A stretch of DNA of 64,000 bases from Vasconcelosia minhoensis LEGE 07310 (GCF_015207255.1 NZ_JADEXG010000005.1:62001-126000), one strand, 5' to 3'. Shown: positions 2,325 to 28,150, counted from the stretch's first letter. Numbers and translations are program-made. The notes: a model not told the origin generated them from the sequence alone.

Positions 2325-2460
2325 GGCAAAGACTATGAGGCTGTCTGTCCTCAGAGCCAGGTTACGGCGGATTGAAATGGCTATCGACAAGGAATTGAGC
2401 GGTTAGCAGTCAAGTGGCTATAACAACATTGCATACATTTGCCTTAGTCTCTGCTTTCAA

Positions 2461-3390
2461 TTACTCAAACTGCTCCCAGTAAGCTGGATTTCCAAACCGT
2501 TCGGCAAGAAAATTAATAAATGCTTTAACTCTTAGCGAATGTCTGCGATTTGGCAGATAAAGTGCATAAATTTCTCTGTTTGTATCAGCTTGAGGGTGGA
2601 TTCGAAAGTCGGTTAACACCGCCTGTAACCGTCCTGCCCGAATATCCTCTCCGATCAGCCAAGTTGGCATTAAGATGAGTCCGCCGCCGTCTAAACATAC
2701 CTGACGTAACATCTCCGAATTGTTGGCCACCAAAGAGCCCTGTATGTGCACATCACACACTTCAGCCTCTCGCTGAAATCGCCAAGTATCGTACCCTGTA
2801 GAATATGCAAACAACAGGCAGTTGTGCTGCGCTAACTCATTCGGGTGTTTGGGTTTTCCATATTTCTCAAAGTAGGCTGGACTACCGCAGACCAAGCGAG
2901 TATAGGACGCTAGCTTACGAAGAATCAGATTGGCACCGGAGCGATCGAGATTGCCCATGCGAATCACTAAATCAAGATCCTCTTCCACCAGATTGGCCAA
3001 TCCATCACTCAGCCGCAGCTCAAGTTTGACGTCTGGATATTGAACCAGAAAGTCACTCAAAATTGGAGCAACGTGGAGCCGCCCAAACGCAACAGGCAGG
3101 CTCACTCGTAAAATCCCTTGAGGAACATCACCCTGTTCCATAACGCAGAGGTTGGCTTCTTCTATATCTTGTAAGATCTGCACCACCTTGGCGTAATATT
3201 TGTAACCCTGCGGCGTAAGTGTGATGCTTCGAGTAGAGCGGTTGAGTAGCTGAGTGTTCAACAGAGCTTCTAAAGCATTGACTTGACGGGTGACGGAAGA
3301 TACTGCCAGTTTCAATTGCCGTGCGGCTTCCGAGAAACCTCCTCCGTCCACTACTTTGACAAACGATCGCATTGCGGCAAGCTGATCCAT
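2461..3390 (-). CDS. LysR-family transcriptional regulator
   Basis: About 309 residues from MDQLAAMRSFVKVVDGGGFSEAARQL. The N-terminal winged helix-turn-helix (residues 5-60, SEAARQLKLAVSSVTRQVNALEALLNTQLLNRSTRSITLT) is canonical for LysR, followed by a LysR substrate-binding domain (PQGILRVSLPVAFGRLHVAPILSDFL and later). It resembles the AaeR/DmlR-like LysR subgroup. I chose this Met because an AGGAG lies 11 bases upstream and the family starts here; 22 upstream codons are open but unlike the family. It is divergent from the FrnE/flavoprotein operon, the classic layout for a LysR regulator and its target. Confidence 0.9.
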   Translation of the reverse strand: MDQLAAMRSFVKVVDGGGFSEAARQLKLAVSSVTRQVNALEALLNTQLLNRSTRSITLTPQGYKYYAKVVQILQDIEEANLCVMEQGDVPQGILRVSLPVAFGRLHVAPILSDFLVQYPDVKLELRLSDGLANLVEEDLDLVIRMGNLDRSGANLILRKLASYTRLVCGSPAYFEKYGKPKHPNELAQHNCLLFAYSTGYDTWRFQREAEVCDVHIQGSLVANNSEMLRQVCLDGGGLILMPTWLIGEDIRAGRLQAVLTDFRIHPQADTNREIYALYLPNRRHSLRVKAFINFLAERFGNPAYWEQFE

Positions 3391-3462
3391 TGCTTGAGCC
3401 ACTCCTAATTTTTGCAAAAAATGCAATAGACATTGGCATAAAAGGGATATTAACATTCTTTG

Positions 3463-3495
3463 TAAGTTGAATTAGGGTTGAACTGTCGCAACTTA
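3463..3495. promoter_or_regulatory. inverted repeat upstream of redox operon, possible LysR site
   Basis: TAAGTTG at 3463-3469 and CAACTTA at 3489-3495 form a 7-bp inverted repeat with a 19-bp spacer, ending 16 bp before the first gene of the operon and lying in the LysR-operon divergent gap. Spacing is longer than a classic LysR T-N11-A box, so the assignment is tentative. Confidence 0.35.
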
Positions 3496-3511
3496 GGCAG
3501 GGAAATCAATC

Positions 3512-4171
3512 ATGACATTAACGATCGGCCTTACCTCTGACTTTATTTGTCCCTGGTGCTGGGTCGCAGAAGCACGATTGCATCGAGCAATTGAGCAACT
3601 GCCTTCCATTGAAATTCATCAGGTTTGGTATCCGTTCGAGCTCAATCCAGATATGCCAGAAGCCGGTATGGATCGCAAAACCTACCGCAGCAATAAGTTT
3701 GGCAGTTGGGACTACTCGCAGCAGTTAGATGCAAAAACGATACAGGCTACTCAAGCCGACGGCATTGAGTTTCGGTATGACTTGATGAAATTGACGCCTA
3801 ACACCCTCAAAGCTCATCGCCTGACGTGGCTTGCTGACAAAAGTGGTAAAGCGACTGAGATGGTTAGACGAATTTTTCGGGCTTACTTCAGTGAGGGACA
3901 AGACATTGGCGATGTAGAAACGTTGGCTAGCCTAGCAGCTGAAACTGGCCTGGATGCTGAGCAGGCTCAAGCGTATCTTCTATCGAACACAGGAACTCAC
4001 GCAATTCGAGAATTAGAGCTGCAGGCAGCTGCCCAGAATGTCCATAGCGTTCCAACCATTCGCATCGGGAATGAAACTTTGTCTGGTGCACAGCCCATCG
4101 ATGTTCTAGTAGCCGCTTTGCAGAAAGCTGCCCATGAACTGAAGAGGGCAAATAGTAAATCTCATGTGTGA
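3512..4171 (+). CDS. DsbA/FrnE-like dithiol oxidoreductase
   Basis: A 219-residue protein of the DsbA-like thioredoxin family close to FrnE (PF01323). The CPWCW active-site motif sits at the end of the first strand (TSDFICPWCWVAE), the helical insertion contains the family pattern FRAYFSEGQDIGD, and the cis-Pro loop appears as HSVPTIRIG. No signal peptide is present, so it should act in the cytoplasm. FrnE proteins were first tied to polyketide biosynthesis and in Deinococcus act as cytosolic disulfide isomerases. Here it is the first gene of an operon; its end overlaps the next gene by 8 bp, supporting joint function with the flavoprotein that follows. Confidence 0.9.
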   Translation: MTLTIGLTSDFICPWCWVAEARLHRAIEQLPSIEIHQVWYPFELNPDMPEAGMDRKTYRSNKFGSWDYSQQLDAKTIQATQADGIEFRYDLMKLTPNTLKAHRLTWLADKSGKATEMVRRIFRAYFSEGQDIGDVETLASLAAETGLDAEQAQAYLLSNTGTHAIRELELQAAAQNVHSVPTIRIGNETLSGAQPIDVLVAALQKAAHELKRANSKSHV

Positions 4172-5471
4172 GGACCAGACCACTACGGCTATAAAACCTA
4201 TGACTCCCTCAAATTCACGTCCTGATCGAAAAGTCAAACTCTACGGCCAACCAAATTCAGCAGCAGCTTATGAAATCCGGGACTTTCTCAGCCGCAGCGT
4301 CGTCGAGTTTGACTGGATTGAACTGACCTGTGATGAAGACTGTCATCGTCAGCTAGGCTTTTCAAGCCTGAGCGAGATTCGCTTGCCGATTGTTGAATTT
4401 CCTGATAGCGATCGGCTTTTCGCTCCTACTCTTCAAGAAGTTGCCCAACGATTGGGCTGGATCACTCAGCCCAGATTCAAAGAGTATGACCTGTCGATCT
4501 ATGGTGCAGGTCCTGCCGGGTTAAGTGCAGCAGTCTATGCAGCGTCCGAAGGTATACGCACCGTTCTGATTGAGCGCCAGGCTGTTGGTGGGCAAGCGGG
4601 TACCAGTTCATTGATTGAAAACTATATGGGCTTTCCTGAAGGCATCAGTGGTGCCGACCTGGCAGAAAGAGCCCGTCAGCAGGCAGTCAAGTTTGGCATT
4701 GAAGTACTGCTTTTACGAGAGGGCGTTAAAGCCGAGTTCAAAAATAATCGGATTTATGTCGATATGGCAGATGGCAGCAAAATGATTGCTTGTGCCAATA
4801 TTTGCGCCACAGGGGTTGAATATCGACGGCTCAATCTTCCTAATGAAGACCGATTTCTTAATCTCGGATTGTTTTATGGTGCAGGTGCTAGCGAAGCCCC
4901 GATGTGTCAAAACGAGCACGTTTATGTAGTAGGCGGCGGTAACTCGGCAGGGCAAGCTGCGATGTATTTCTCTCGCTATGCTAAACAGGTGACGATGCTG
5001 GTTCGCGGGTGTAATCTGGCAGCTTCACTGTCGCAATATCTGCTTGAGAGGATTACTCAAACCAGCAATATTGAAGTGTTGTTTAATGCTCAAGTTGCCG
5101 ATCTCAGTGGAGATCAAACCCTGCGACGAATTACGATTGCTAATTCTCAAGATGGGTCAGAGCAACAAAGCGAAACCCAACGCCTGTTTATCTGCATCGG
5201 TGGCGCGCCCAACACAGAATGGGCAAAAGATACCCACATTATTCGAGATGATTCAGGCTATCTGATCACGGGATCAGATTTGCTTAAGGAGGGTCGTCTA
5301 CCCGCCTGTTGGAAATTGGAACGAGATCCTTTCTTTCTAGAAACCAGCGTTCCCGGTGCTTTTGCGGCTGGAGATGTTCGGCACGGCTCTGTAAAACGAG
5401 TAGCTTCAGCGGTTGGCGAAGGGGCAATGGCAGTCACATTTGTGCATAAATATCTGGAGGAGACGAGATGA
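4164..5471 (+). CDS. thioredoxin-reductase-like flavoprotein with N-terminal Trx-fold domain, no CxxC
   Basis: A 435-residue protein. Residues about 20-90 look like a glutaredoxin/thioredoxin-fold domain (KVKLYGQPNSAAAYEIRDFLSRS) without active cysteines. Residues about 105-430 are a pyridine nucleotide-disulfide reductase fold: FAD loop GAGPAGLSAA, GQAGTSSLIENYMGFPEGISG, NADPH loop VVGGGNSAGQAA and the C-terminal GAFAAGDVRHGSVKRVA. Where thioredoxin reductase has CATC this protein reads YGAGASEAPMC, so the redox pair is missing. This subgroup exists in other bacteria, often with regulatory domains, and its substrate is unknown. The start may be at 4164 or at the Met at 4200. It overlaps both neighbours, so the three genes are probably co-translated. 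Confidence 0.85.
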   Translation: MCEDQTTTAIKPMTPSNSRPDRKVKLYGQPNSAAAYEIRDFLSRSVVEFDWIELTCDEDCHRQLGFSSLSEIRLPIVEFPDSDRLFAPTLQEVAQRLGWITQPRFKEYDLSIYGAGPAGLSAAVYAASEGIRTVLIERQAVGGQAGTSSLIENYMGFPEGISGADLAERARQQAVKFGIEVLLLREGVKAEFKNNRIYVDMADGSKMIACANICATGVEYRRLNLPNEDRFLNLGLFYGAGASEAPMCQNEHVYVVGGGNSAGQAAMYFSRYAKQVTMLVRGCNLAASLSQYLLERITQTSNIEVLFNAQVADLSGDQTLRRITIANSQDGSEQQSETQRLFICIGGAPNTEWAKDTHIIRDDSGYLITGSDLLKEGRLPACWKLERDPFFLETSVPGAFAAGDVRHGSVKRVASAVGEGAMAVTFVHKYLEETR

Positions 5472-6619
5472 ACCCGATGTATAATCGCGCCATTGTCATC
5501 GGTGGCTCATTAGCTGGGCTATTCGCCGGAATACTACTGCGCTCTATCGGATGGCAGGTAGACATTTACGAACGGTCTCCTCATACGCTGGATAGTCGTG
5601 GTGGGGGCGTTGTGCTACAGCCAGACGTAGTCGAGGCATTTCGACGGGCAGGCATTCCTCAAGAAGCTTTAGGAGTAGTTGCCCATGAGCGCTACTACCT
5701 GAAGCGGGATGGCGGCATTCAGCGAATGCCGATGCGCCAAACCCTGACTTCTTGGAACCTGCTCTATGGTTGGATGCGACGGCATTTTCCGGACGAGCAT
5801 TATCAACAGGGAAAAGTACTGACGAATTTTCAACCAGAAGACAACAGCGTTACGGCAATTTTTGCCGATGGCACTCGCGAAAGGGGCAATTTATTGATCG
5901 GAGCTGATGGACCCGGCTCTACAGTTCGTCAATTGCTTTTGCCGACCTACACTCCTCAGTATGCTGGCTATGTGGGCTATCGAGGCTTGGTAGATGAGCA
6001 GGATTTAGACCCAGAAATAGCGGCGATTTTCACAGAGCACTTCGTGTTCTATCAATTTCCGAATTCTCACATCCTGCAATATCTAATTCCCGGAGAGAAT
6101 GAGTCGCTAGTGCTAGGGGAGCGTCGGTTTAACTGGGTGTGGTATGTCAACTATGACGAGGCGACAGAATTGCCCCGTATCCTGACCGATTTGAAGGGTA
6201 GGCGTCGCGACTATTCTATTCCACCTGGAATGATGGCTCCTAAAGTTGAACAAGAGATGCGGGCCTATGCCAGTCGGGTTCTGGTTTCTCCATTTCAAAA
6301 GCTGGTAGCAGCGACGAAGGAGCCGTTCGTACAGGCCATTTTAGATCTGGGTATACCGCAAATGGCGTTCGAGCGTATTGCACTGGTTGGGGATGCTGCC
6401 TTTATTCCGCGTCCCCATACTGCCGCTAGCACTTCAAAAGCGGCAGCCAACGCGATCGCACTTGCAGATGCCCTCATCAAACATAATCACGATGTTCCAG
6501 ATGCCTTGAAAGCTTGGGAAGGCAGTCAGCTGGCGCTAGGAATGCATCTCTGGCAGCGGGGTCAGAGCTTGGGTGAAAGCTCGCAGTTCATGCACGGCAC
6601 AGACCGAATAGAGGAGTAG
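5468..6619 (+). CDS. FAD-dependent aromatic-type monooxygenase
   Basis: A 383-residue group A flavin monooxygenase (PF01494 type). The FAD-binding motif GGSLAGLFAGILLRSIGWQVDIYERSP is at residues 10-37, the middle DG motif appears as LLIGADGPGSTVRQ, and the C-terminal FAD contact is RIALVGDAAFIPRPHTAAST. The last part (AASTSKAAANAIALADAL) resembles 2,6-dihydroxypyridine hydroxylase and similar enzymes. It should hydroxylate a small aromatic or heteroaromatic compound using NAD(P)H and oxygen. Its ATG overlaps the stop of the flavoprotein gene (ATGA). With the FrnE-like protein upstream, the operon could oxidise a quinone-like or aromatic substrate; that link is inference. Confidence 0.88.
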   Translation: MNPMYNRAIVIGGSLAGLFAGILLRSIGWQVDIYERSPHTLDSRGGGVVLQPDVVEAFRRAGIPQEALGVVAHERYYLKRDGGIQRMPMRQTLTSWNLLYGWMRRHFPDEHYQQGKVLTNFQPEDNSVTAIFADGTRERGNLLIGADGPGSTVRQLLLPTYTPQYAGYVGYRGLVDEQDLDPEIAAIFTEHFVFYQFPNSHILQYLIPGENESLVLGERRFNWVWYVNYDEATELPRILTDLKGRRRDYSIPPGMMAPKVEQEMRAYASRVLVSPFQKLVAATKEPFVQAILDLGIPQMAFERIALVGDAAFIPRPHTAASTSKAAANAIALADALIKHNHDVPDALKAWEGSQLALGMHLWQRGQSLGESSQFMHGTDRIEE

Positions 6620-6626
6620 CCGATTG

Positions 6627-6761
6627 GTACCACCCCATGTTGAACACTCGTTGACGGAGCTGGGCTAGACCATCACGCCAATGCTGAATACTATGACAAA
6701 GTGGGGCAAAGGGTATGAATCTGCCTATCCTCTAGGCTCTAGCTTTGCGGGGCGAGTGTAA
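6627..6761 (+). pseudogene. remnant of HxlR-family gene (C-terminal part)
   Basis: Translating from 6627 gives VPPHVEHSLTELG, then TAG, then TITPMLNTMTKWGKGYESAYPLGSSFAGRV and a stop. This matches the end of the HxlR protein at 1992-2324 position for position, and the DNA of 6626-6735 aligns with 2246-2355 with only scattered mismatches and no gaps. The remnant keeps the Trp codon (TGG) that is TGA in the intact-looking gene, but has TAG in place of the earlier Trp. No helix-turn-helix part is present. It is a broken duplicate, or the old tail of the gene displaced by an insertion. Confidence 0.75.
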
Positions 6762-6942
6762 ACAACGATTCTCCTAATCGGAGGTTCTCGAGGGTGAATA
6801 TGTGACTGAACCCCGTCGAGGTCGCTAATCGAAAAGTTTTGTACCTGCCGAGACCCTTAAGGCGTTCAATTTGGGCTGCATCAGGCTTAGCAGTATAATC
6901 GGAGCAAGTGACTTAGCTCACCACTTCCGGAAACTACAAGGG

Positions 6943-7509
6943 ATGAATATTCCAAAAGAGATTCGAACAGCGCGTTTGCTGCTGCGCTGGTGGCGACCTT
7001 CTGACCGAGCACCTTTCGCTGCAATGAATGCCAGCCCTCAAGTGAGGGAGTTTTTCCCAGACCTGCTAACTCAAGCAGAGAGCGATGCGTCAGTAGACCG
7101 CTTTGAAGCCCATTTCGCCCAGCATGGATTTGGATTTTGGGCGGTAGAGATTCCTAACGCTGCGCCATTTGCAGGATTTATCGGGTTGAAGATTCCCAGC
7201 TTTGAAGCACATTTTACGCCCTGCGTGGAAATCGGCTGGCGACTGGCTGAGCAATACTGGGGCAGAGGCTATGCGACTGAGGGAGCCCGGGCTGCTCTGA
7301 GGTTTGGCTTTGAGGTGTTGAAGCTGAAGCAAATTGTGTCTTTCGCGGTGCCGAACAATCTGCGATCGCGCCGCGTCATGGAAAAAATCGGCATGACTTA
7401 TAGCCCAGCGGACGACTTCTTGCATCCACTGATGCCAGCAGGGCATCCGCTCCAAGCACATGTACTGTACCGGATTAAGGCGGATGACTATGCTCGACAA
7501 ATCGGTTGA
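6943..7509 (+). CDS. GNAT-family N-acetyltransferase (RimJ/RimL-like)
   Basis: About 188 residues from MNIPKEIRTARLLLRWWRPSDRAPF, the standard opening of the RimJ/RimL branch (Acetyltransf_3). The acetyl-CoA-binding motif is EIGWRLAEQYWGRGYATEGARAALRFGFEVL, followed by the RSRRVMEKIGMTY motif that ends the fold. The start at 6943 was chosen because homologues begin there and a purine-rich AAGGG precedes it; the frame is open for another 24 codons upstream. Such enzymes acetylate small molecules or protein N-termini; the substrate cannot be told. It stands alone, upstream of a decayed region. Confidence 0.88.
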   Translation: MNIPKEIRTARLLLRWWRPSDRAPFAAMNASPQVREFFPDLLTQAESDASVDRFEAHFAQHGFGFWAVEIPNAAPFAGFIGLKIPSFEAHFTPCVEIGWRLAEQYWGRGYATEGARAALRFGFEVLKLKQIVSFAVPNNLRSRRVMEKIGMTYSPADDFLHPLMPAGHPLQAHVLYRIKADDYARQIG

Positions 7510-15827: not shown

Positions 15828-15998
15828 AAAGATAACGAAGCCCGAATCATTTTTCATAATCAATAATCAGGCTCAGTGCTCTTAGCCGCATGTCCCTTAT
15901 TGATTAAACAAATGAGAACCTCGATACAACCTAAATCCAGATGGTGGAGAAAGCCCGTAATCAATCGCCGGGCCTGGACTTGGGAAGATGCTAATAAC

Positions 15999-17660
15999 AT
16001 GCAGCGCAATGGGCAGTGGTGGCAGCACGCGGTGATTTACCAGATCTTTCCCCGCAGCTTTCAAGACAGTATGGGCAACGGCGTCGGTGACCTCAATGGG
16101 ATCATCAATCGGATGGACTATATCGTCTCGCTGGGCGTAGACGCGATTTGGCTCAGCCCCATTTTTGAATCGCCGATGGAAGATATGGGCTACGACGTCA
16201 CCGACATGCTGGATATCGACCCCCTGTTCGGCGATATGGAGGATTTTGACCGGCTGCTCGATGTCGCCCACACCATGGGGCTGAAGGTGCTGATCGATCA
16301 GGTGTGGAACCACACCTCTGACCAGCATCCCTGGTTCGTCGAAAGCCGCAAGAGTCGGGACAATGAAAAGGCAGACTGGTTTGTCTGGGCCGATGCCAAG
16401 CCCGATGGGTCGCCGCCGAATAATTGGCTTTCGGCCTTTATGGGCGAAAGTGCTTGGAAATGGGACGACGTGCGCGAGCAGTACTATTTCTACAATTTTT
16501 TACCCAGCCAGCCGGAGCTAAACTGGCACAATCCAGATGTGGTCAAGGCCATTCTCAACCGGGCTAAATTTTGGCTGGAGCGCGGGGTCGATGGCTTTCG
16601 GATGGACGCGGTGAACTTCTACCTTCATGACAAAGAGCTGCGTGACAATCCCATCCGCCCGGACAACGGCATCTTTCCCGATGGGGTCGATCCCGACAAC
16701 CCGATGGTGCAGCACATGTTCCAGTACAACTTTTGCCAGCCCGAAAATATTGAGGCGCTGAAGCCGATTCGCCAGCTGGTCGATCAGTACCCCGGCACGG
16801 TTACGCTAGGCGAGGTGACTCTCTGCGAGGACTCGATTGACTTGTCCAGTCAGTATGTGGAGGATGGCGATCGCCTGCATCTGGCCTACAACAGCGCGCT
16901 GCTGGTAGATGAGCCGCTCAGCGCCGAGCTGATGAGTAAGACCGTGGGGCGGGTGCAAGAGCACTTTCTCCAGGGAGGGCAGTGCTGGATGGTGGGGAAC
17001 CACGACTATGGGCGGCTTAGGTCGCGCTGGACCGGCAGCGACGCCGAGGGCTTTCCCTACCCAGATGAGTTCTATCGCATGAGCGCAGCGCTGTTGCTAT
17101 CTTTACCTGGGGCGCTGTGTCTCTATCAGGGCGATGAGCTGGGGCTGCCAGAGGCGAAAATTCCCAAAGATATCCCCGAAGATAAAATTCAGGATCCGTT
17201 TGGCAAAGCCCTTTACCCTAAGGTGCCGGGTCGGGATGGGTCTCGCACGCCTATGCCCTGGCAGGAAAATGCGCCCAATTCTGGATTTACAAAGGAAGGC
17301 GTGGAACCCTGGCTGCCGATTCCTAAAAAGCATCGGGCACTGGCAGTCGATGTCCAAAATGCCGACCCAGATTCGCTGCTGAATACCTGGCGGCGGCTGA
17401 TGCACTGGCGCAGGCAGCAGCCCGCCCTGATTTCTGGCCACTTTGAGCTGATGAAAGCAGAGGAGCCGGTATTCGTTTTTATTCGAGAGTACGCCGAGCA
17501 GCGGCTGCTGTGCGTCTTCAACATCAGCAACCAGCCGGTCAAATATGACCTGTCTGAGTTTGAGCGCTATGAGCCGACCGTCGGGCTGAGATTCTACTCA
17601 GAAGTTTGGGAAGATGTGCTGAAGCTGCCCAGCTACGGGGTATTTTTTGCTGATCTGTAG
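15999..17660 (+). CDS. GH13 alpha-glucosidase
   Basis: About 553 residues from MQRNGQWWQHAVIYQIFPRSFQDSMGNGVGDLNG, the standard opening of oligo-1,6-glucosidase-like GH13 enzymes. The barrel motifs are DQVWNHTSDQHPWF (region I), GVDGFRMDAVNF with the nucleophile Asp (region II), TLGEVTLCEDS with the acid/base Glu (region III) and MVGNHDYGRLRSRW with the stabilising Asp (region IV). It should release glucose from short alpha-glucosides such as maltose, isomaltose or sucrose in the cytoplasm. The open frame extends 41 codons upstream; the chosen Met fits the family and has a GGGAAG upstream. A close paralogue follows 59 bp downstream. Confidence 0.88.
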   Translation: MQRNGQWWQHAVIYQIFPRSFQDSMGNGVGDLNGIINRMDYIVSLGVDAIWLSPIFESPMEDMGYDVTDMLDIDPLFGDMEDFDRLLDVAHTMGLKVLIDQVWNHTSDQHPWFVESRKSRDNEKADWFVWADAKPDGSPPNNWLSAFMGESAWKWDDVREQYYFYNFLPSQPELNWHNPDVVKAILNRAKFWLERGVDGFRMDAVNFYLHDKELRDNPIRPDNGIFPDGVDPDNPMVQHMFQYNFCQPENIEALKPIRQLVDQYPGTVTLGEVTLCEDSIDLSSQYVEDGDRLHLAYNSALLVDEPLSAELMSKTVGRVQEHFLQGGQCWMVGNHDYGRLRSRWTGSDAEGFPYPDEFYRMSAALLLSLPGALCLYQGDELGLPEAKIPKDIPEDKIQDPFGKALYPKVPGRDGSRTPMPWQENAPNSGFTKEGVEPWLPIPKKHRALAVDVQNADPDSLLNTWRRLMHWRRQQPALISGHFELMKAEEPVFVFIREYAEQRLLCVFNISNQPVKYDLSEFERYEPTVGLRFYSEVWEDVLKLPSYGVFFADL

Positions 17661-17719
17661 CGTGCGATCGCCAAATAGGCTTGTAGAATGCTTGAGAAGC
17701 AGCCGTCAAGTCAGTAGGT

Positions 17720-19393
17720 ATGAATTCAACTTCTCAGCGCCCGCCGCTTTTACAATCTCAGGACTGGTGGCGCAGTGCCGTCATCTATCAGGTCTATCCC
17801 CGCAGCTTTCAAGACGCCAGCGGCGATGGTATTGGCGATCTCAAGGGGATTACGCAAAGGCTCGACTACATTGCAGCTCTTGGCGTCGATGCCATTTGGG
17901 TTTCGCCCTTTTTCAAGTCGCCGATGAAGGACTTCGGCTACGATATCTCCGACTACCGAGCCGTCGAGCCGATGTTCGGGACGCTGGCAGACTTTCAGGA
18001 ACTGCTAGCAGCAGCCCATCAGCGTCAGCTTAAAATTCTGATTGACCAGGTTTGGAACCATACCTCTGACCAGCATGCCTGGTTTGTCGAAAGCTGCCAG
18101 AGTCAGAACAATCCCAAAGCCGACTGGTACGTCTGGGCCGATGGCAAATCCGATGGCTCGCCGCCGACTAACTGGCAGTCGGCCTTTGGCGGCAGCGCCT
18201 GGACCTGGGAACCGCTACGGCAGCAGTACTACCTGCACAATTTTCTAGTCGAGCAGCCCGACTTGAACTGGCACAATCCAGAAGTGAGGGACGCGATCGC
18301 GCAGGAAGCCATTTTCTGGCTTGATATGGGCGTAGACGGCTTTCGGCTCGACGTAATTAATTTTCTGCTGCACGACCGCCAGCTGCGCGATAATCCCCTC
18401 CGCCCAGAGGACCATCCTCTTCCAGCAGGCGCGCGTGAGGGCGATCCCTTCTTCTTCCAAATCAATCAATACAACTTCGGTCGCCCCGAAACACTGGAGC
18501 TGCTGGGGTCAATCCGCCAGCTAATTGACCGCTATCCCGGCGCAACTCTGCTGGCCGAGATTAGCTCTGAAGAAGACTCCATCCTCACTTCTAGCCATTA
18601 TGTGCAGGGCGACGACCGGCTGCACATGGCCTATAATTCGTCGCTGATGACCGATGAGCCGCCCACCTATGAGAATCTGCGTCGGACGATTGAGCGGGTC
18701 GAGCAGCATTTTGGCGAGGGCGTGATCTGCTGGACAGCGGGAACCCACGATTTTCCCCGGCTGAAGTCCCGCTGGCAAAAGCACCAGCTGGGGAATGAGT
18801 TTGGCCAGGAAGCTTTTGACCACATGTTTGCGGCATTGCTAATTGCCCTACGCGGCAGCTGCTGCATCTATCAGGGCGACGAGCTAGGGCTGACCGAAGC
18901 CCAAATTCCCTTTGAAAAATTGCAGGACCCCTTTGGTATTGCCGGCTATCCAAATGTATTGGGTCGTGACGGCTGCCGCACCCCGATGCCTTGGCAGCAG
19001 ACGGCGGAAAACGCTGGGTTTACGACTGCCTCAGAGCCGTGGTTGCCGATTCCGAAAGAGCATCGGGCTCACGCTGTAGACCAGCAAGAGCAGATTCATG
19101 ACTCTCTATTGAACAAGTATCGCCGGCTGATCCATTGGCGCAGGCGGCAGCCCGCTTTACTGCGCGGCAAGCTGACGCTGATAGATACTGCAGAACCGCT
19201 GCTGGGTTTTATTCGCGAGAGTAAAGAGCAGACGCTGCTATGCCTGTTTAACCTTAGTTTGACACCGGCCTACTACGATCTTGCCGCCTATCCTGACTGT
19301 GTCTCAGCCTCTGATTCAGAATTCTCTCCCAGACGCTATGGGAACAAGATAGAGGTGCCAGGCTACGGAGTCTTCTTTGGCTGTATAGGATAG
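17720..19393 (+). CDS. GH13 alpha-glucosidase, tandem paralogue
   Basis: A 557-residue enzyme from MNSTSQRPPLLQSQDWWRSAVIYQVYPRSFQDASGDGIGDLKG, clearly related to its upstream neighbour, with the same order of GH13 motifs: IDQVWNHTSDQHAWF, GVDGFRLDVINF (nucleophile Asp), LLAEISSEEDS (acid/base Glu) and WTAGTHDFPRLKSRW. The last motif is THD where most GH13 enzymes have NHD, though the catalytic Asp is kept. This may change substrate preference or activity. It should act on short alpha-glucosides. The pair is a tandem duplication on one strand, with divergence large enough that it is not recent. Confidence 0.87.
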   Translation: MNSTSQRPPLLQSQDWWRSAVIYQVYPRSFQDASGDGIGDLKGITQRLDYIAALGVDAIWVSPFFKSPMKDFGYDISDYRAVEPMFGTLADFQELLAAAHQRQLKILIDQVWNHTSDQHAWFVESCQSQNNPKADWYVWADGKSDGSPPTNWQSAFGGSAWTWEPLRQQYYLHNFLVEQPDLNWHNPEVRDAIAQEAIFWLDMGVDGFRLDVINFLLHDRQLRDNPLRPEDHPLPAGAREGDPFFFQINQYNFGRPETLELLGSIRQLIDRYPGATLLAEISSEEDSILTSSHYVQGDDRLHMAYNSSLMTDEPPTYENLRRTIERVEQHFGEGVICWTAGTHDFPRLKSRWQKHQLGNEFGQEAFDHMFAALLIALRGSCCIYQGDELGLTEAQIPFEKLQDPFGIAGYPNVLGRDGCRTPMPWQQTAENAGFTTASEPWLPIPKEHRAHAVDQQEQIHDSLLNKYRRLIHWRRRQPALLRGKLTLIDTAEPLLGFIRESKEQTLLCLFNLSLTPAYYDLAAYPDCVSASDSEFSPRRYGNKIEVPGYGVFFGCIG

Positions 19394-20257: not shown

Positions 20258-21448
20258 TTAAGTTTGAGGTTTCTCAAAGCTAGCCTGGGCTGCAACCCGT
20301 CTACCAAACCCATCAGTCAGTAAGGGACCGAGCAAACAGGTCAGCACAATGTAAGCCACAACGGCATTGAAGAGCGCTTCATTGATTAATCCAGCTTCCT
20401 GCCCAAACAGGGCAATCACTAACACCAATGCCGCTCTGGGAACAGTCAAGCTGAACATCGTCATGATTTCAGCTGGGGAATAGTGAAATAACTCGCCGGC
20501 AATCCAAGCCGCTAAAAGTTTTGCCCCTAGAGCTGCCACCACAAAAGCAAAAACAAAACCCAGATTGCCTGGATTGGTAACTAGAATGCTCGGATTTGAC
20601 AAAACCCCCACTGAAACCATAAAGGCTGGAATGAAGAGACTGTTGCCAACAAACTCTATTTGTTTCATCAATGGGCTGTTGATGGGGACCAGGCGATTTA
20701 AGGATAAGCCGGCAATGAAAGCCCCAACGATAGAATCAACTTCCAGTAAAAGGGTGGCAGAGGCTAATGCGAATAGGCAAGTTAGGACAAATCCAAATTG
20801 AGTGACCAGTGAGTCAGCCGATTTGTCGAACACAAATCGGCCTAGCTTTGGAATCAGCCAGAAGCTGATCATCACTAAGCAGGGTAGTAAAACGAGTAGC
20901 TTAATCCACAGCAAAATGCCGACGTTGCCCCTAGTGGTTGCCTGAACAATTGAGAGTCCTATTAGGGTTAGAATCGACGTCACCACAGTTCCGCCGACGG
21001 TCACCCCAATGACTTCCCGCTGAGCAATGCCTAGGCGAGTCATGATCGGATAAGCCATCAGGGTATGGGGAGAATAGAGAATCCCCACCAGTAAGGCGCT
21101 CAGCAGGCCATAGGCCATGATTTTGCCAAACCCAATGCCGACGGCCAGCGGGATCCCAAACGTCAGCAGTCCAAAAATCAGCGATCGCGCCCCCAATCGC
21201 CTAAAATCACTCAAATCCATCTGCATGCCTGCGATCAGCATGATATAGAGCAATCCAATTGTCTCTAGCAGAATCAGCTGAGCATCCCGTTCCAAAAGGC
21301 CTAATCCATTACTGCCAAAGACAGCACCTAGAATAATCAGCACTGCTAGGGGTGGAAGCCGCAGGCGAATGGCAATTACCGGCGCGACCTGAATGATTAG
21401 CAGGATTAAGCCAAAAACGTAAACTGGCCTGGTTAAGGGAAGGTCCAT
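20258..21448 (-). CDS. cation:proton antiporter (CPA2/KefB-NapA type)
   Basis: About 396 residues from MDLPLTRPVYVFGLILLIIQVAPVIAIRL, with around 12 hydrophobic segments spread through the length. The pattern (GLLYIMLIAGMQMDLSDFRR, EVDSIVGAFIAGLSLNRLVP, LFIPAFMVSVGVLSNP) is that of the Na+/H+ exchanger domain of CPA2 transporters (PF00999). No C-terminal TrkA-N nucleotide-binding domain follows, so it is a short form. It should exchange Na+ or K+ for protons in the plasma membrane. The start sits one base after the stop of the FHA-PrsW gene, so the two are translationally coupled and probably work together. Confidence 0.87.
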   Translation of the reverse strand: MDLPLTRPVYVFGLILLIIQVAPVIAIRLRLPPLAVLIILGAVFGSNGLGLLERDAQLILLETIGLLYIMLIAGMQMDLSDFRRLGARSLIFGLLTFGIPLAVGIGFGKIMAYGLLSALLVGILYSPHTLMAYPIMTRLGIAQREVIGVTVGGTVVTSILTLIGLSIVQATTRGNVGILLWIKLLVLLPCLVMISFWLIPKLGRFVFDKSADSLVTQFGFVLTCLFALASATLLLEVDSIVGAFIAGLSLNRLVPINSPLMKQIEFVGNSLFIPAFMVSVGVLSNPSILVTNPGNLGFVFAFVVAALGAKLLAAWIAGELFHYSPAEIMTMFSLTVPRAALVLVIALFGQEAGLINEALFNAVVAYIVLTCLLGPLLTDGFGRRVAAQASFEKPQT

Positions 21449-21449
21449 A

Positions 21450-22814
21450 TTAAATTCGGGCGGCAAAGTTCTGCGATCGCGAGGGAGAGAGTTCTCGGGC
21501 TTTGAGAATAGCGGCCACCAGGAAGGCATAGGCGATAACGCCGACAAACGCCAGACCTAACGGACCTAACGGACCTAGCGTGCTTGCGGTAGCATTCCAG
21601 AGGGCATGAACGGTCGCAGCGGTGAGATAGCCAATCCCGAGAATTCGCCAGCGCTTAGAAGGCTTGAGCACGCTTAAACCGATAAAGTAGCCGAAATAGC
21701 CGCTGTAAGCCATGTGGCCAGCGACTGACCCCAGAACGCGCGGGATTAGCAGCTGTAGTCCTGCCAGCTGGCCCGCTCCTGTTCCTGACATCGCGGCAAC
21801 CTGCTGAGCGACAGCTGGCACAAATTGCCCTAAAGTTTCCAGCCAGGTAAACCCCAGGGCCGCAGCGGCAGCTAATAAAATCCCATCTAAGGGCTCTACC
21901 ACACCAACGCGATCGCGCCAGTGCCAGCTCAAGCTTCTACCTATCCAACACAGTCCTAGAGCAGGCAGAGCTTTCAGCAGCTCCTCCATCAGCCCAGCTC
22001 CAAAAAAGTGGGCCACGAACTGAGAAATAAACCCAGCCTGTTCAACCCGCTCAGTATTTCCTGGCAACACGACTCGAAATATGTAAATAAAGAGACTGAG
22101 AGTCGGACCATAGTACAGAATTGCCATCGTTGCGATCGCCGACCCCATTAGAATCCACCAGGGTTTACGCTTTCCACAGAGCTGGTAGATAAAGAAAAAG
22201 CCCGCTCCTCCTAGGTAAGCTGCTAGCAGCAGGTTGAAAAGGGCCGGTGAGTCAGCCGCAACGAAGAGAAAGACAACGAAGATAACAGTAATAATTCCAG
22301 GAATCAAGTAGGCTTTTTGAACTAAATCTCGACGGGTAGAGACGACGAGAACCAGATGATTCCAGGTCAGCGCCGTTTCTGGCCGGGCAGAATCTAACCG
22401 GTTAAAACCAGCAGCGCTTTTACCAGGGAGCTTCTGATTATATGTCTGACATTCAAACACCAGCTCAGGACCGTTTTGGCCTCCCAGTGTAATGCGATCG
22501 CCGACTTGCAACGTTTGACAGTTCTGAACCCGCTGGCCATTGATAAATGTGCCATTGGCGCTATTCAGATCGCAAATCTGCCAGGTCGGGTACGCCTGAT
22601 TATTTTTATCCGTCTTTTGGGAGGGTCGAACAGCAGCATGACGGCGTGAAACTCTATCATACAAGCGAGAGTCAAAAATGATTTGACATTCCGGTTCTCG
22701 CCCAAGTATCAGTTCCTGAGTTTCAGACAAGATATGGTGCGGCTGGTCCATTCCCGCTAAACTCCCAGGCGAAACCGGTATAAGCAGCCCTTGATAACGA
22801 TGGCTTTCCGTCAT
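21450..22814 (-). CDS. FHA domain plus PrsW-type intramembrane protease
   Basis: A 454-residue fusion. Residues about 28-120 are an FHA domain, a phospho-threonine-binding module, with LILGREPECQI, SRRHAAVR and DLNSANGTFINGQRV. From about residue 165 come eight or so hydrophobic segments with the PrsW motifs EELLK (GLMEELLKALPALGLCW), H-x-x-Y (VAGHMAYSGYFGYFI) and the HALWNATAS near the end. PrsW is a glutamic-type membrane protease that cuts membrane-bound regulators; in Bacillus subtilis it cleaves anti-sigma-W. Here protease activity would be recruited to a phosphorylated protein. The antiporter gene follows directly. The next locus, on the other strand, has two more FHA proteins and a kinase. 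Confidence 0.88.
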   Translation of the reverse strand: MTESHRYQGLLIPVSPGSLAGMDQPHHILSETQELILGREPECQIIFDSRLYDRVSRRHAAVRPSQKTDKNNQAYPTWQICDLNSANGTFINGQRVQNCQTLQVGDRITLGGQNGPELVFECQTYNQKLPGKSAAGFNRLDSARPETALTWNHLVLVVSTRRDLVQKAYLIPGIITVIFVVFLFVAADSPALFNLLLAAYLGGAGFFFIYQLCGKRKPWWILMGSAIATMAILYYGPTLSLFIYIFRVVLPGNTERVEQAGFISQFVAHFFGAGLMEELLKALPALGLCWIGRSLSWHWRDRVGVVEPLDGILLAAAAALGFTWLETLGQFVPAVAQQVAAMSGTGAGQLAGLQLLIPRVLGSVAGHMAYSGYFGYFIGLSVLKPSKRWRILGIGYLTAATVHALWNATASTLGPLGPLGLAFVGVIAYAFLVAAILKARELSPSRSQNFAARI

Positions 22815-23236
22815 TTTGGATGGCTTCGGCGTTTGGTGAAAGTTAAAGATTAGATAGCGAAGGTAGGCACTATAGTTCAGGCACCATAGTTGGGGAGGAC
22901 AGCGATATCAGGCGATGAAATTATGGCGATAAAATTGTCAAGTTAACTTAAATCTTAGTTATTTGGTTATCCAGCTAAGTTAGCCATCCAGCTACGGATG
23001 TAGCCGCTGTTCATTCACGAGTTTTTGAACTCTTGTTAATCCTATGAAGCTCACCCTATGAAGCTCACCTTATAAAGTCAGGATATAGTAATTTAATAAT
23101 CGGAATATTTAAGTTTCTGTAAATATTATTTAAAGCGGCTAAGTATGCTTGACAAGCGCGAATGGGGAGAGCTGAAATAGGGGTATGTATGCGTTTTAGC
23201 GTATGCATCGAGGCTATCTCTTCAAGTAATCGCCCA
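22815..23236. promoter_or_regulatory. AT-rich divergent control region of the FHA island
   Basis: A 422-bp region between divergent FHA genes, notably richer in A+T than its surroundings. It contains a 14-bp tandem repeat, CCTATGAAGCTCAC, twice at 23041-23068 with a partial third copy after. Near 22914-22935 GCGATGAAATTATG and GCGATAAAATTG form another imperfect direct repeat. Both FHA operons must start here, so the repeats may be regulator sites. No known box was recognised. Confidence 0.4.
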
Positions 23237-23743
23237 ATGAATGAACTAATGTTACAGTGGCAAGAAGCCGGGCAGACTAAAACTCGGAGACTCTACCACC
23301 AGCAGCCCAGCAAACATCCAGGAACGATTCGCTTGGGTCGCGACCCGGCCCGTTGTGACATTCTTTTTCACGATCGCTCCGTGTCGGGACTGCATGTTGA
23401 GATTTACTTTAGCCCACAGCAGCAGCAGTTTTATCTGCGAAATTTGCGCCAAACCAATCCGCCATTGATCGACGGCCAACGGCTGTCTGCGGGAGAAGTT
23501 GCCTTGCGTTTAGGCACCATCATTCGTCTAGGCAAAGTAGAGGCAGTGGTTGACGCTATCCAAGTCAGTGGTCTAGTTAGGGGAGCCTATGGCCTGCGAT
23601 GCCCTAATCCTGAATGCGGTAAAGTGTCTCCTTACACCCATCAGCATTTGCAAGAGGGGTGCCCTATCTGTGGCTTTGCCCTGGATGCAGCCAAATCTAC
23701 TTTGATCACGTCTTCCTTACTCAGGAAGGACCCTGAGCAATGA
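23237..23743 (+). CDS. FHA domain protein with C-terminal zinc ribbon
   Basis: About 168 residues from MNELMLQWQEAGQTKTRRLYHQQPSKHPGTIRLGRD. The FHA core shows LGRDPARCDI, SVSGLHVEI and NPPLIDGQRLSAG. The C-terminal part has CPNPECGKVSPYTHQHLQEGCPIC, a CxxxxC...CxxC zinc ribbon. The frame is open for 25 codons upstream, but the chosen Met at 23237 leads straight into the domain. The protein has no enzyme domain, so it probably acts as an adaptor that links a phosphorylated partner to another protein or nucleic acid. Its stop overlaps the start of the FHA-flavoprotein gene (ATGA), and it is the first gene of a four-gene unit. Confidence 0.85.
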   Translation: MNELMLQWQEAGQTKTRRLYHQQPSKHPGTIRLGRDPARCDILFHDRSVSGLHVEIYFSPQQQQFYLRNLRQTNPPLIDGQRLSAGEVALRLGTIIRLGKVEAVVDAIQVSGLVRGAYGLRCPNPECGKVSPYTHQHLQEGCPICGFALDAAKSTLITSSLLRKDPEQ

Positions 23744-25692
23744 GATCGGGTACCTCACAAATTCGGCTCAGTTGGCAAGAACCCGCCACAGGCGAATTGC
23801 GGGAACCCTTGCTGACCTTACCCGTAGCCCTGGGACGGGTGCTCGACCAGATGCCAGCCCAGCTCCAAGGGCAACCGGTGTCGCGAATCGTTCTGGATAG
23901 TGGTCAGCTGTCTCGTTTTCACGCTCTGCTTACTCTAGAGCAAGGCAATTTGACTCTCACCGACCAAAACAGCACCAATGGGACTTGGATTAATGGTGTC
24001 CGTCAGACTCGCGGCATCCTCAATAGCGGCGATAGCTTCCAGATAGGACCCTACCGGATTGGGATAGTTGCGGCTGGAGCCAGGGCGGCCGCTCGGACCG
24101 TCCGCTCCAGTGAGGAGTCCTTTATCCAACTTGATGAACCGAATGAGCCTGAGCAGGCGCCTGAACGGGCCACCTCGAACTTTCCGCCTGCCTGCTTTCG
24201 ATCTCAGCAGGTGAGGGTTCAAGACCTCTATGCGACGGGCCTACCTGTCGAAGAAATTGACTATGCCGGTGTCGGTGCAGGTCTGGGCAGCTTTATCTGG
24301 GTCGATTATCTGAGAAACTTTGGCGTTAGCCGTCAGCAAATTAAAGTCGTTGGTTTAGAACTCGAGCCCTACGCCAAGTACCAGCGGCTGTGCCTAAATT
24401 CTCAGATTCCAGCCCACGAGCGGCTGCGGTCTAATTCAGATTCTTGCCCTGACAATCTTTGGGGTTGGCCGAGCTATGCCCTGCGGGAAGCCTGGCATGA
24501 CTTCCAAAAGGGAAGTATGGCTTCGGCTTGGCGTTATCTCTGGCAGGTGTTTGCTGAGCCGACCTTGGCCGAAACCTATACCCCTCGTGCCGGGAACGTA
24601 TTTGCCTCGATAGATCGGGAAGCGGCTCGCATTGGCTGGGAGCAAATGTACCAGTACGGCAGAGTCCAGGCGATTCGCAAAACCAATGATGGCCGCTATG
24701 CGATCGCCTATTCTCGGGGCCGAGGAGACCACGCTTTTTTAGTAACCCGCTATCTGCATCTCGCGACTGGCTATCCAGTCGTGAAATTTCTGCCCGATTT
24801 GCAGGAATACCGGGAACGAACCAACAATTTTAAATCAGTCGTCAATGCCTACGAAGCCCATGACCATGTCTACCAACAGCTAGAGCGTCAGGGAGGCACG
24901 GTGGTCATCCGAGGACGGGGCATCGTTGCCTCGCGAATTATTCAACGTCTCTATGAAGCCCGTCGGCGCAATCCCAATATTGCCCTACTACACTTAATGC
25001 GATCGCCCAAACCCCAGGGGAATAAGTTTGGGACGGCCCAGCGAACGGTTGAAAATCACTTTGAGTTTCAACCCTTTAACTGGCCAAAAGCCTGCTGGGG
25101 CGGCGAACTACGAGTTCAACTAGAGCAAGCTAGCCCGGAGCAGCGGCGCAGCCTGATCAGCGACTGGGGCGGGACTACCACGGCAGACCGGGGAGATTGG
25201 AAACAAATTGTACAGGAAGGTCTGAATCAGGGCTGGTATCAAATCAACTTTGGCGAGGTGATTCGGGTAGAACCAGACCCGCAGGGTCGGCCTACCACCT
25301 ATATCCGCGAAAAAGGACCGAAGGGAGAAATCAAACTGGATGCTGACTTTATTATTGATGCTACTGGGCTCGATGGCAAGGTGAAGTCCAGCCCACTCCT
25401 CAATGATTTAGTGACCCATTACAATCTACCCCTCAATCCCCTAGACCGGCTGGCGGTCACTAACCACTTTGAAGTTGCTGAGATGCGGAATGACCGGGGG
25501 CGCGTCTATGCAGCTGGAGCCATCACTTTCGGCGGTCCCTATGCTGCCGTGGATAGTTTTCTAGGTCTGCAGTACTCAGCGCTTTGGGCAGTGGATAGCT
25601 TAGCCGCTGCTCGCGCCCCCCGACTGAAGTCGCTCAAGGGATGGGCTTCCTACAAACAGTGGTTAAAGTGGGTGAGGAATCAAGCACCATGA
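23740..25692 (+). CDS. FHA domain fused to FAD/NAD(P)-dependent oxidoreductase
   Basis: A 650-residue fusion. FHA domain: residues about 25-115, with LGR at 31-33, SRFHA at 58-62 and NSTNGTWIN at 77-85, the phospho-threonine-binding residues. A linker of about 60 residues follows. The rest is a two-dinucleotide-binding-domain flavoprotein: GVGAGLG at 177-183 for FAD, GRGIVAS for NAD(P)H (TVVIRGRGIVASRIIQRLYEARR) and the DATGLDG motif late in the protein. This resembles the lysine/ornithine N-monooxygenase and flavin monooxygenase class, but the substrate is unknown. Its coding start overlaps the zinc-ribbon gene and its stop overlaps the membrane protein gene, so the operon is tightly coupled. 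Confidence 0.85.
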   Translation: MRSGTSQIRLSWQEPATGELREPLLTLPVALGRVLDQMPAQLQGQPVSRIVLDSGQLSRFHALLTLEQGNLTLTDQNSTNGTWINGVRQTRGILNSGDSFQIGPYRIGIVAAGARAAARTVRSSEESFIQLDEPNEPEQAPERATSNFPPACFRSQQVRVQDLYATGLPVEEIDYAGVGAGLGSFIWVDYLRNFGVSRQQIKVVGLELEPYAKYQRLCLNSQIPAHERLRSNSDSCPDNLWGWPSYALREAWHDFQKGSMASAWRYLWQVFAEPTLAETYTPRAGNVFASIDREAARIGWEQMYQYGRVQAIRKTNDGRYAIAYSRGRGDHAFLVTRYLHLATGYPVVKFLPDLQEYRERTNNFKSVVNAYEAHDHVYQQLERQGGTVVIRGRGIVASRIIQRLYEARRRNPNIALLHLMRSPKPQGNKFGTAQRTVENHFEFQPFNWPKACWGGELRVQLEQASPEQRRSLISDWGGTTTADRGDWKQIVQEGLNQGWYQINFGEVIRVEPDPQGRPTTYIREKGPKGEIKLDADFIIDATGLDGKVKSSPLLNDLVTHYNLPLNPLDRLAVTNHFEVAEMRNDRGRVYAAGAITFGGPYAAVDSFLGLQYSALWAVDSLAAARAPRLKSLKGWASYKQWLKWVRNQAP

Positions 25693-26108
25693 CACCAACT
25701 CTTCTAGGCCGTTGGCAAACTCGAATTCTATTATTCCAAACCGTAGGACTCTTGGTGACGTTGCTTTTCACCGAGGGAGTGATTGGGCCAGGAGGAGGTG
25801 TATTCCTCTGGGTACTGGAGTACCTTTTCATATTTGGTCTGGGTTGGGATGTCTTGTACAACTATCTCCAGAAATTTCGCTGGGATCGAGACTGGCCCGG
25901 CGCTTTGCAGCTTGCTGCTGGGGTTTGGGAAGCCTTCTTTATAGTGCTAGTGATTGGATTTTTTGGCCTGCCTGGCATTTTCTTCTTGGATTTGGGCTGG
26001 TTTTTGGTGCACTACAGTCTGGTCTGGCTCGCCATTTACATCGCCTCCCAGTCACTCATGAGAATTTTATTTCCCCGCTGGCGGTTTCGGGGGGGTGTGT
26101 GGCTTTAA
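25689..26108 (+). CDS. four-helix integral membrane protein of unknown function
   Basis: A 139-residue protein from MTPTLLGRWQTRILLFQTVGLLVTLLF. Hydrophobic stretches near residues 15-33, 40-55, 75-95 and 105-125 predict four membrane helices, with a basic C-terminus (RWRFRGGVWL) that should face the cytoplasm. The ATG overlaps the flavoprotein stop (ATGA) and the frame is open for 16 codons upstream. I do not recognise the family. Its place between an FHA-flavoprotein and a membrane-anchored Ser/Thr kinase suggests it helps to anchor or gate this signalling unit; that is inference. Confidence 0.8.
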   Translation: MTPTLLGRWQTRILLFQTVGLLVTLLFTEGVIGPGGGVFLWVLEYLFIFGLGWDVLYNYLQKFRWDRDWPGALQLAAGVWEAFFIVLVIGFFGLPGIFFLDLGWFLVHYSLVWLAIYIASQSLMRILFPRWRFRGGVWL

Positions 26109-26164
26109 AGCAAGGTTATTAGATATTTAAGGAACCGGAATTTAAGGAATTAGAGACGAAACCC

Positions 26165-28150
26165 ATGGAAACAACCCTACTAGGCAACCGCTATCAGGTC
26201 ATTCAAAGCCTCGGGAGTGGCGGCTTTGGCGAAACTTTCTTAGTCGAAGATACCCACATGCCGGCTCGTCCGCGTCGAGTCCTCAAGCGGCTGAAGCCCG
26301 TGACTGACAATCCCAAAGTTTATGAGGTTGTCCAAGAGCGATTTCAGCGGGAAGCCGCCATTTTAGAGAAAGTGGGCAGCATCCATCACCAGATTCCCAA
26401 CCTGTTTGCCTATTTTGCTGAGGGGGGTGAGCTCTATCTCGTGCAGGAGTGGGTTGAGGGTCAGACCCTGACCGAAATCGTGAACTCCGGAGGCGCGCTC
26501 CCTGAACAGCGGGTTGAGGAAATTCTGATATCACTTCTATCGGTGCTCAAATTTATCCACGCTGAGGGCATTATCCACCGGGATATCAAGCCTGACAATA
26601 TCTTGTATCAAACAGAACAGGGGAAACCTTTCCTAATTGATTTCGGAGCCGTCAAGGAAATTTTGGGAATTCACCTGGACTCGCAGGGAAATACCGCTAG
26701 CTCGATTGTGATTGGAACCAAGGGCTATATGCCATTAGAGCAGGCCAGCGGTCGTCCGGTTTTTTCTAGCGACCTCTACAGTTTAACGATGACGATGATC
26801 TATCTGCTGACTGGCAAGTGGCCTCAAGAGCTAATTGACCCGCGGAATGGGCAAGTCCAGTGGCGCTCTCATACGCTTGGCGTTAGCTCAAGGCTTGCCA
26901 ATGTCTTAGACAAGGGCCTCCAGCCTCATCCCCGCGATCGCTATGCTACGGCTCAGGACATGTTAGAGGCACTTCAGCCCAGCAAAAGCACGGTGCCGGA
27001 GACGGAAGTCAGCTCCTCGGGCCATCAAACGGTGCCGAAGACGGAAGTCAGCTCCTCGGGCCATCAAACGGTGCCGAAGACGGAAGTCAGCTCCTCGGGC
27101 TATCAAACGGTGCCGGAGACGGAAGTCAGCTCCTCAGGCAATTACAACGATGTCCACCGTCACGGTCAAAGCGGGTTTGGGCAGTCGGGCAGCTCTGAAT
27201 CTACTGGTCAGGTAGTGCCAGATGAGATTCGAGGCTGGAATTGGGGCGCATTTTTGCTATCTGGGATTTGGTGCTTGCCCAATCAGGTTTGGATTGGACT
27301 GCTCTCCTGGGTTCCCCCGGCTAGTTTTGTGATGCCGTTTGTGCTGGGCGCTAAAGGCAATGAGATGGCCTGGAAAAGCCGCCGTTGGAAGAGCGTTGAT
27401 GCGTTTAAATCTCACCAGAAGGGCTGGACGATTGCCGGTTTGGTTACGTCAGGCTCAGCATTTTTTATCTTCTTCATAATTGCGCTTAACGGCGGTATGC
27501 CAGAAGAGCCTCGGAATCAAGGGGGCACCACGCAGAGGGGACCTACTTTAACATCTCAGGGGAACTTGTCTGCCGAAGCAGTTGAATTATTTAATCAAGC
27601 CGTAGTCAAACAGGATGCCGGCAATTTTCGCGGTGCTATCGAGGATTATACCCGTTATCTTCAGCTTAATCCTGAAGATGCCGATGCTTACTTCAATCGG
27701 GGAAATGCCTACCTTGATCTAAATAGCCCGGTAACTGCTATCGAGAACTATACCAGAGCGATTCAACTTGATCCCGATTATGCTAATGCCTATTTCAATC
27801 AGGGTCTGGCCCATTATGATTTAAATAATCTCCAGGCCGCGGTTGAGAGCTTTAGCCGTTATCTTCAACTTGATTCCGATGATGCCGATGCCTATTTTCA
27901 CCGGGCTAATGCCTATGACGATCTGGGCAATCTGCAAGCTGCTATCGCAGACTACACCCAAACCATTCAGCTTGATTCTGCCTATGCCCCTGCTTTCTAC
28001 AACCGAGGTCTTGCTCATGTCGATCTGGGCAACACGTCAGCGGCACTTGACGATTTCGATATAGCGGCTGAGCTTTATATAGAGCAGGGGAATGAAGAAT
28101 ATTACTATGATGCGCTAGATAGAATCAACGAACTGGGAGGCTTCGATTAA
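26165..28150 (+). CDS. membrane-anchored serine/threonine protein kinase with TPR repeats
   Basis: A 661-residue protein. Kinase domain, residues about 1-275: glycine loop LGSGGFGETFLVED (16-29), Lys41 in RRVLKRLKP, HRD in IIHRDIKPDNIL, DFG in LIDFGAVKE and TKGYMPLEQASG in the activation segment. All catalytic residues are present, so it should be active. Then four 13-residue repeats of TVPETEVSSSGHQ type, a membrane section of about 100 residues (WNWGAFLLSGIWCLPNQVWIGLLSW, then FVMPFVLGAKG and WTIAGLVTSGSAFFIFFII) and a C-terminal run of about five TPRs. It is the only kinase of the island and follows two FHA-protein genes on the same strand. Confidence 0.9.
   Translation: METTLLGNRYQVIQSLGSGGFGETFLVEDTHMPARPRRVLKRLKPVTDNPKVYEVVQERFQREAAILEKVGSIHHQIPNLFAYFAEGGELYLVQEWVEGQTLTEIVNSGGALPEQRVEEILISLLSVLKFIHAEGIIHRDIKPDNILYQTEQGKPFLIDFGAVKEILGIHLDSQGNTASSIVIGTKGYMPLEQASGRPVFSSDLYSLTMTMIYLLTGKWPQELIDPRNGQVQWRSHTLGVSSRLANVLDKGLQPHPRDRYATAQDMLEALQPSKSTVPETEVSSSGHQTVPKTEVSSSGHQTVPKTEVSSSGYQTVPETEVSSSGNYNDVHRHGQSGFGQSGSSESTGQVVPDEIRGWNWGAFLLSGIWCLPNQVWIGLLSWVPPASFVMPFVLGAKGNEMAWKSRRWKSVDAFKSHQKGWTIAGLVTSGSAFFIFFIIALNGGMPEEPRNQGGTTQRGPTLTSQGNLSAEAVELFNQAVVKQDAGNFRGAIEDYTRYLQLNPEDADAYFNRGNAYLDLNSPVTAIENYTRAIQLDPDYANAYFNQGLAHYDLNNLQAAVESFSRYLQLDSDDADAYFHRANAYDDLGNLQAAIADYTQTIQLDSAYAPAFYNRGLAHVDLGNTSAALDDFDIAAELYIEQGNEEYYYDALDRINELGGFD
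26990..27145 (+). repeat. 39-bp tandem repeats in the kinase linker
   Basis: Four near-identical 39-bp units encode TVPETEVSSSGHQ, with small changes (TVPKTEV in two units, GYQ and GNY at the ends). The DNA is almost identical between units, so the array is young. Each unit carries Thr with Glu at +3 (TVPE), close to a phospho-Thr motif of the type read by FHA domains. Confidence 0.85.

Follow-up and report, generated by a model that had tools for sequence, protein, structure and literature searches.

A conserved pair of an FHA-flavoprotein and a four-helix membrane protein as the core of a candidate phospho-controlled redox module in cyanobacteria

Hanks-type kinases and FHA proteins are numerous in cyanobacteria, and few of their targets are known. 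OdhI and GarA are FHA proteins that control metabolic enzymes under Ser/Thr kinases. In the KefC/KefF and KefB/KefG systems, a CPA2 K+/H+ exchanger is accompanied by an ancillary flavoprotein oxidoreductase, and the flavoprotein genes overlap their neighbours by a few bases (PMC10224563). Here, we compare with these systems a locus of Vasconcelosia minhoensis LEGE 07310, located in a stretch of 64,000 nucleotides that we call the window (GCF_015207255.1 NZ_JADEXG010000005.1:62001-126000). The likeness to OdhI and GarA lies in an FHA domain as a probable phospho-switch on redox metabolism; however, the FHA domain is fused to the enzyme in the present system, and the NCBIfam OdhI model gave a score of 34 against a cut-off of 200. 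The likeness to Kef lies in a flavoprotein oxidoreductase encoded together with a CPA2 antiporter. Unlike KefF, a ~20-kDa ancillary quinone reductase of a different fold, the present flavoprotein combines two dinucleotide-binding domains in its model with an FHA domain, has a four-TM partner and gave no KefF-like family match by sequence. The present short antiporter also differs from the Kef exchangers in lacking the C-terminal RCK/KTN domain: the ORFs of its group span 392-467 aa, and the two antiporters scanned carry PF00999 only.

The island occupies positions 20258-28150 of the window and comprises six ORFs arranged as two divergent operons. On the minus strand lie an accessory short CPA2-type cation:proton antiporter of 396 aa (20258..21448; PF00999, E=2.5e-46; no RCK/TrkA domain) and FHA-PrsW, an N-terminal FHA domain joined to a PrsW-type membrane protease domain (21450..22814; PF00498, E=2.9e-17; PF13367, E=1.3e-34), with a 1-base gap (21449) between the two genes. 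An intergenic region (22815..23236) separates the operons. The plus-strand operon begins with FHA-Zn, a protein with an FHA domain and a zinc ribbon of C-terminal Cys pairs, C-x4-C ... C-x2-C (23237..23743; PF00498, E=5.3e-13), whose start is likely the ATG at 23237 rather than 23162. It is followed by the FHA-flavoprotein (23740..25692; FHA, E=3.8e-14), in which the FHA domain (~aa 1-111) is connected by a linker to a two-dinucleotide-binding-domain flavoprotein (~aa 168-629), and by an orphan four-TM membrane protein of 139 aa with helices at residues 8-28, 38-61, 70-92 and 102-127 (25689..26108). ATGA overlaps join FHA-Zn to the FHA-flavoprotein (23740-23743) and the latter to the membrane protein (25689-25692). 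The last gene, starting 56 bp past the membrane-protein gene, encodes an accessory Ser/Thr kinase with hydrophobic segments and TPRs (26165..28150; PF00069, E=2.3e-33). The six genes in two divergent operons, the ATGA junctions and the one-base gap described in an earlier, sequence-only reading of this DNA were thus all found as claimed. Just upstream of the island, at 15876-19393, two tandem related alpha-amylase-like genes of glycoside hydrolase type were assigned by eye.

The island is poorer in GC (51.2%) than the window as a whole (54.7%), and its GC3 of 0.51-0.56 falls short of the 0.65-0.66 in the two flanking genes. Among the genomes searched of the same family (f1), the core of FHA-flavoprotein and membrane protein was found in the window's genome only. 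The low GC and GC3 together with this absence from other searched members of the family suggest that the island was likely gained here by horizontal acquisition. In the tree, the window's flavoprotein groups with those of Acaryochloris relatives and Picosynechococcus (support 100/99).

Of 390 cyanobacterial genomes, 93 encode the FHA-flavoprotein; they belong to 49 of 159 genera. A separate search for the membrane protein also returned 93 of the 390 genomes, and these were the same 93 without a single discordant case. Because the two genes, their order and their co-occurrence are kept across 22 cyanobacterial families, the core arrangement is more than chance. The sampled genomes are related, so that nominal P values for the co-occurrence overstate independence, but the pattern is still seen in the 22 families. 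For 83 of the 99 flavoprotein copies, a membrane-protein gene lies within 10 kb (73 of these within 1.5 kb); for the remaining copies, the two genes share a contig but are far apart in 5 cases and sit on separate contigs in 11. In four genomes (G381, G207, G343 and G127), the sole copies of the two core genes share a contig but are separated by 0.5-2.6 Mb, and linkage alone therefore cannot account for the match of the two sets. Six genomes (G142, G209, G215, G224, G298 and G386) carry two flavoprotein and two membrane-protein copies.

In a scan of genome contigs, the best 80 of the 317 relatives were all cyanobacterial. Plasmid searches gave only Nonomuraea gerenzanensis (L087, 9935-11868), where a 39%-identical flavoprotein is encoded without an FHA domain; its gene overlaps a membrane-protein gene (TTGA) whose product keeps the motifs of the family. 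Since this overlapping pair occurs without FHA, the unit is the flavoprotein/membrane-protein pair, and the FHA fusion is a trait of its cyanobacterial form. Searches of phage genomes and PHROG families returned no homologues. An apparent FHA-less flavoprotein in one cyanobacterial locus (L025) is a frameshift.

The sequence-only reading had labelled the flavoprotein an FAD/NAD(P) oxidoreductase. Profile searches do not back this label, as the region of ~500 aa matched nothing in Pfam or NCBIfam; support for it comes from the AlphaFold model. The model, built from 48 homologues with a moderate mean pLDDT of 73, shows the FHA domain, a disordered linker and a two-dinucleotide-binding-domain fold. 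The top Foldseek matches were SidA/PvdA N-hydroxylases (SidA, E=1.4e-16). With VIA-align, YpdA ranked best (Z 21.4 over 311 residues, rmsd 3.7), and the first ranks held YpdA, thioredoxin reductases, FNR2 and FMO-like enzymes with Z of 21-19 over ~300 residues. Both Rossmann motifs, GxGxxS and GxGxxA, are present. Together, Foldseek, VIA and the motifs support placing the modelled protein among flavoproteins with FAD and NAD(P) Rossmann domains. The overall fold and the two motifs are common to SidA/PvdA, to FMO/thioredoxin-reductase-type flavoproteins and to the FHA-flavoprotein, whereas the latter has ~10-18% identity to them, no Pfam match, no conserved Cys, an FHA fusion and an obligatory membrane partner. 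Sequence searches against the PDB yielded nothing credible, and Pfam at E<=10 over six members gave stray weak matches in single members (Trp_halogenase, E=0.002, in 1/6). No SidA/PvdA profile matched, either in Pfam at this threshold or in NCBIfam. No Cys is invariant among 8 diverse homologues including that of Nonomuraea, and disulfide-reductase chemistry was rejected because the redox-active Cys pair of thioredoxin/disulfide reductases is not conserved.

The four helices first proposed for the membrane protein are supported by its model (pLDDT 81). It matched nothing in Pfam or NCBIfam, and no PDB entry matched its fold: Foldseek reached E=4.8 at best, and the highest VIA score (Z 5.7) was for a helical stretch. 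The invariant residues are concentrated at both termini and in the loop that joins helices 2 and 3. In the four-TM model, the conserved charged residues fall on one membrane face, presumably cytoplasmic by the positive-inside rule, and this face is a plausible docking face. We considered a heme-binding membrane protein; the sole well conserved His (H108) is missing in Nonomuraea and in one further locus (L080). In several Nostocaceae (L115-L117, L012 and L121), a GDSL-like lipase/esterase gene, recognised by eye, precedes the membrane-protein gene.

The FHA domain of the flavoprotein keeps G32, R33, R59, H61 and N85 in 47 of 47 readable rows and S58, N80 and G81 in 46, retaining the GR, SxxH and NG residues of a phosphothreonine-binding surface. 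A loss of binding residues in most homologues, which the sequence-only reading had named as counting against its proposal, was thus not found. FHA-Zn retains GR and SxLH and has a third motif of the NPPxVDG type, and its Cys pairs are conserved in most members and degenerate in one subtype. Where the contig extends far enough, its gene almost always precedes that of the flavoprotein, in one genus (L088) at a distance of ~5 kb; in one Nostocaceae clade (L102 and L103), FHA-Zn was not found in the core neighbourhood.

With a PF00069 Pkinase domain and the motifs HRDIKPDN and DFG, the window's kinase is of the Hanks type. A kinase gene immediately follows the core in the window (family f1), in Picosynechococcus (f37; L021 and L109) and in family f29 (L101), and flanks the core in family f27 (L099). 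Among the own-genome kinases compared, these core-linked kinases have the window's kinase or its 73% paralogue as their best match, and they differ in their C-terminal parts, which by eye are TPR, WD40-like or other. A kinase partnership, as first suggested, is borne out to the extent that kinases of a single subfamily are found beside the core in four families. The 73%-identical paralogue itself (L152, G000:C37:15000-27475, 2041-7272) is divergent to a fusion of two FHA domains with an ABC transporter (ABC_tran and ABC2_membrane), a second pairing of FHA and kinase in the same genome. FHA-PrsW shares the PF13367 domain with Bacillus subtilis PrsW, the site-1 protease of RsiW, but differs from it by the FHA fusion; it matches the Pfam PrsW domain, and its score with the NCBIfam PrsW equivalog, 19.3 bits, is far short of the required 225. 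The divergent arrangement of its gene is found in Acaryochloris relatives and the window. FHA-PrsW was rejected as a module-specific part because it occurs in 213 of 390 genomes, mostly elsewhere in the genome, and many such genomes have no core.

The short antiporters form a group with at least 49% identity, whereas longer CPA2 proteins do not exceed 41%, which leaves a clear gap. This group was found in 17 of 276 genomes, and all 17 carry the core, as do ~78 of the 276. Counted by family, the association is 7/7 families against 22/43, with a modest P of ~0.005. In families f15 and f27 and in Aphanothece, the short antiporter gene immediately follows the membrane-protein gene, with gaps of 0 to ~85 bp. 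Neighbour counts made after the fact place other CPA2 antiporters close to the membrane-protein gene in Nostocaceae, families f10 and f34 and Microcoleus. A genome of family f15 (G224; L149, 2803-16856) carries within 15 kb the membrane protein, the antiporter, the flavoprotein, FHA-Zn, a PP2C phosphatase, kinases that carry RDD, FHA or MORN in one case each, and FHA-PrsW, in an order unlike that of the window. As the f15 cluster and the window gather similar parts in differing order, two unrelated lineages have assembled nearly the same set. The antiporter partnership put forward earlier is strengthened by this cluster and by the confinement of the group to core-carrying genomes. The claim of a phospho-signalling system stood in part: the core is conserved and apparently undescribed, as we found no description of such a module in the open-licence literature, but the six genes do not form a fixed operon. 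Likewise, the proposed co-occurrence across cyanobacteria is constant for flavoprotein and membrane protein, but not for the mostly unlinked FHA-PrsW or the kinase, whose adjacency is the minority state.

We tentatively read the island, with nearly an even chance of being right, as one version of a cyanobacterial module for phospho-controlled membrane redox, built on an FHA-NAD(P)H/FAD-flavoprotein and a dedicated four-helix protein. The membrane protein would hold the flavoprotein at the membrane via its conserved, probably cytoplasmic, face. A Hanks-type kinase, linked here and unlinked elsewhere, would make phosphothreonine, and the FHA domains of the flavoprotein and FHA-Zn would bind it, so that phosphorylation could control assembly or activity. 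The output would most likely be redox control of a membrane process and, in lineages with a linked CPA2 antiporter, might be cation/proton exchange by a KefF-on-KefC logic. The best-supported part is a membrane-docked, FHA-controlled flavin redox enzyme, to which the co-occurrence, the fold and the conserved residues point; genomic association suggests that the antiporter may be an output. The physical complex, phosphate-dependent binding, the substrate and antiporter gating are what we infer beyond this. The whole reading is weakened because most lineages have neither kinase nor antiporter adjacent to the core and most core-positive genomes are without the short antiporter; the Nostocaceae clade without FHA-Zn and the fold difference from KefF also count against it.

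Since the closest Foldseek matches are N-hydroxylating monooxygenases, the flavoprotein may simply be a biosynthetic enzyme. This main rival, to which we give an appreciable if smaller chance, sees in the core a biosynthetic or detoxifying enzyme, namely a class-B-like flavin monooxygenase or reductase. The four-TM protein would present its lipophilic substrate (e.g., a lipid, quinone or carotenoid), FHA would give coarse phospho-regulation, and the antiporter and PrsW linkages would be incidental. The FMO-type enzymes in the VIA ranking and the lack of a conserved catalytic Cys, which speaks against disulfide chemistry, fit such an enzyme, as does the FHA-less Nonomuraea pair, in whose inspected surroundings neither a kinase nor an antiporter could be made out by eye. 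However, the restriction of the short antiporter group to core-positive genomes, the CPA2 genes near the membrane-protein gene in several lineages and the wealth of phospho-signalling genes in the f15 cluster are not what it would lead one to expect.

A core of two or three genes could also function alone, with kinase, FHA-PrsW and antiporter as chance neighbours here, among the ~19 kinases and 9 antiporters of this genome. FHA-PrsW is indeed common and usually unlinked, and kinase and antiporter are adjacent in a minority of cases, as would suit this explanation, but we consider it improbable given the same kinase subfamily beside the core in four families, the antiporter exclusivity of 17/17 and the differently ordered, near-complete set in f15. 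PD-T4-6 kinase models recognise the kinase (E=1.6e-95), and the patchy distribution and probable horizontal acquisition here would also suit an anti-phage or stress defence module with a defence-type Ser/Thr kinase. Yet the PD-T4-6 models probably match such kinase domains in general; PADLOC gave no match for the FHA-flavoprotein, the membrane protein, FHA-Zn or FHA-PrsW, phage homologues were absent from our searches, and presence is stable within many lineages, all of which makes a defence role very improbable.

Returning to the phospho-controlled redox module, two unnamed protein families, one of them an FHA-fused enzyme, co-occur without exception in our sample, and the core is a concrete candidate for a phospho-regulated membrane target. 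A bolder version, which we regard as rather unlikely, would make the pair a membrane redox complex of a new, phospho-gated class that senses NAD(P)H redox state jointly with Ser/Thr phosphorylation and drives or gates cation/proton antiport in cyanobacteria, derived from an older FHA-less pair also present in actinomycetes. The module is present in the tractable genera Picosynechococcus, Nostoc and Anabaena. If the link to the antiporter is true, kinase signalling in phototrophs would be tied to redox state and to ion/pH homeostasis.
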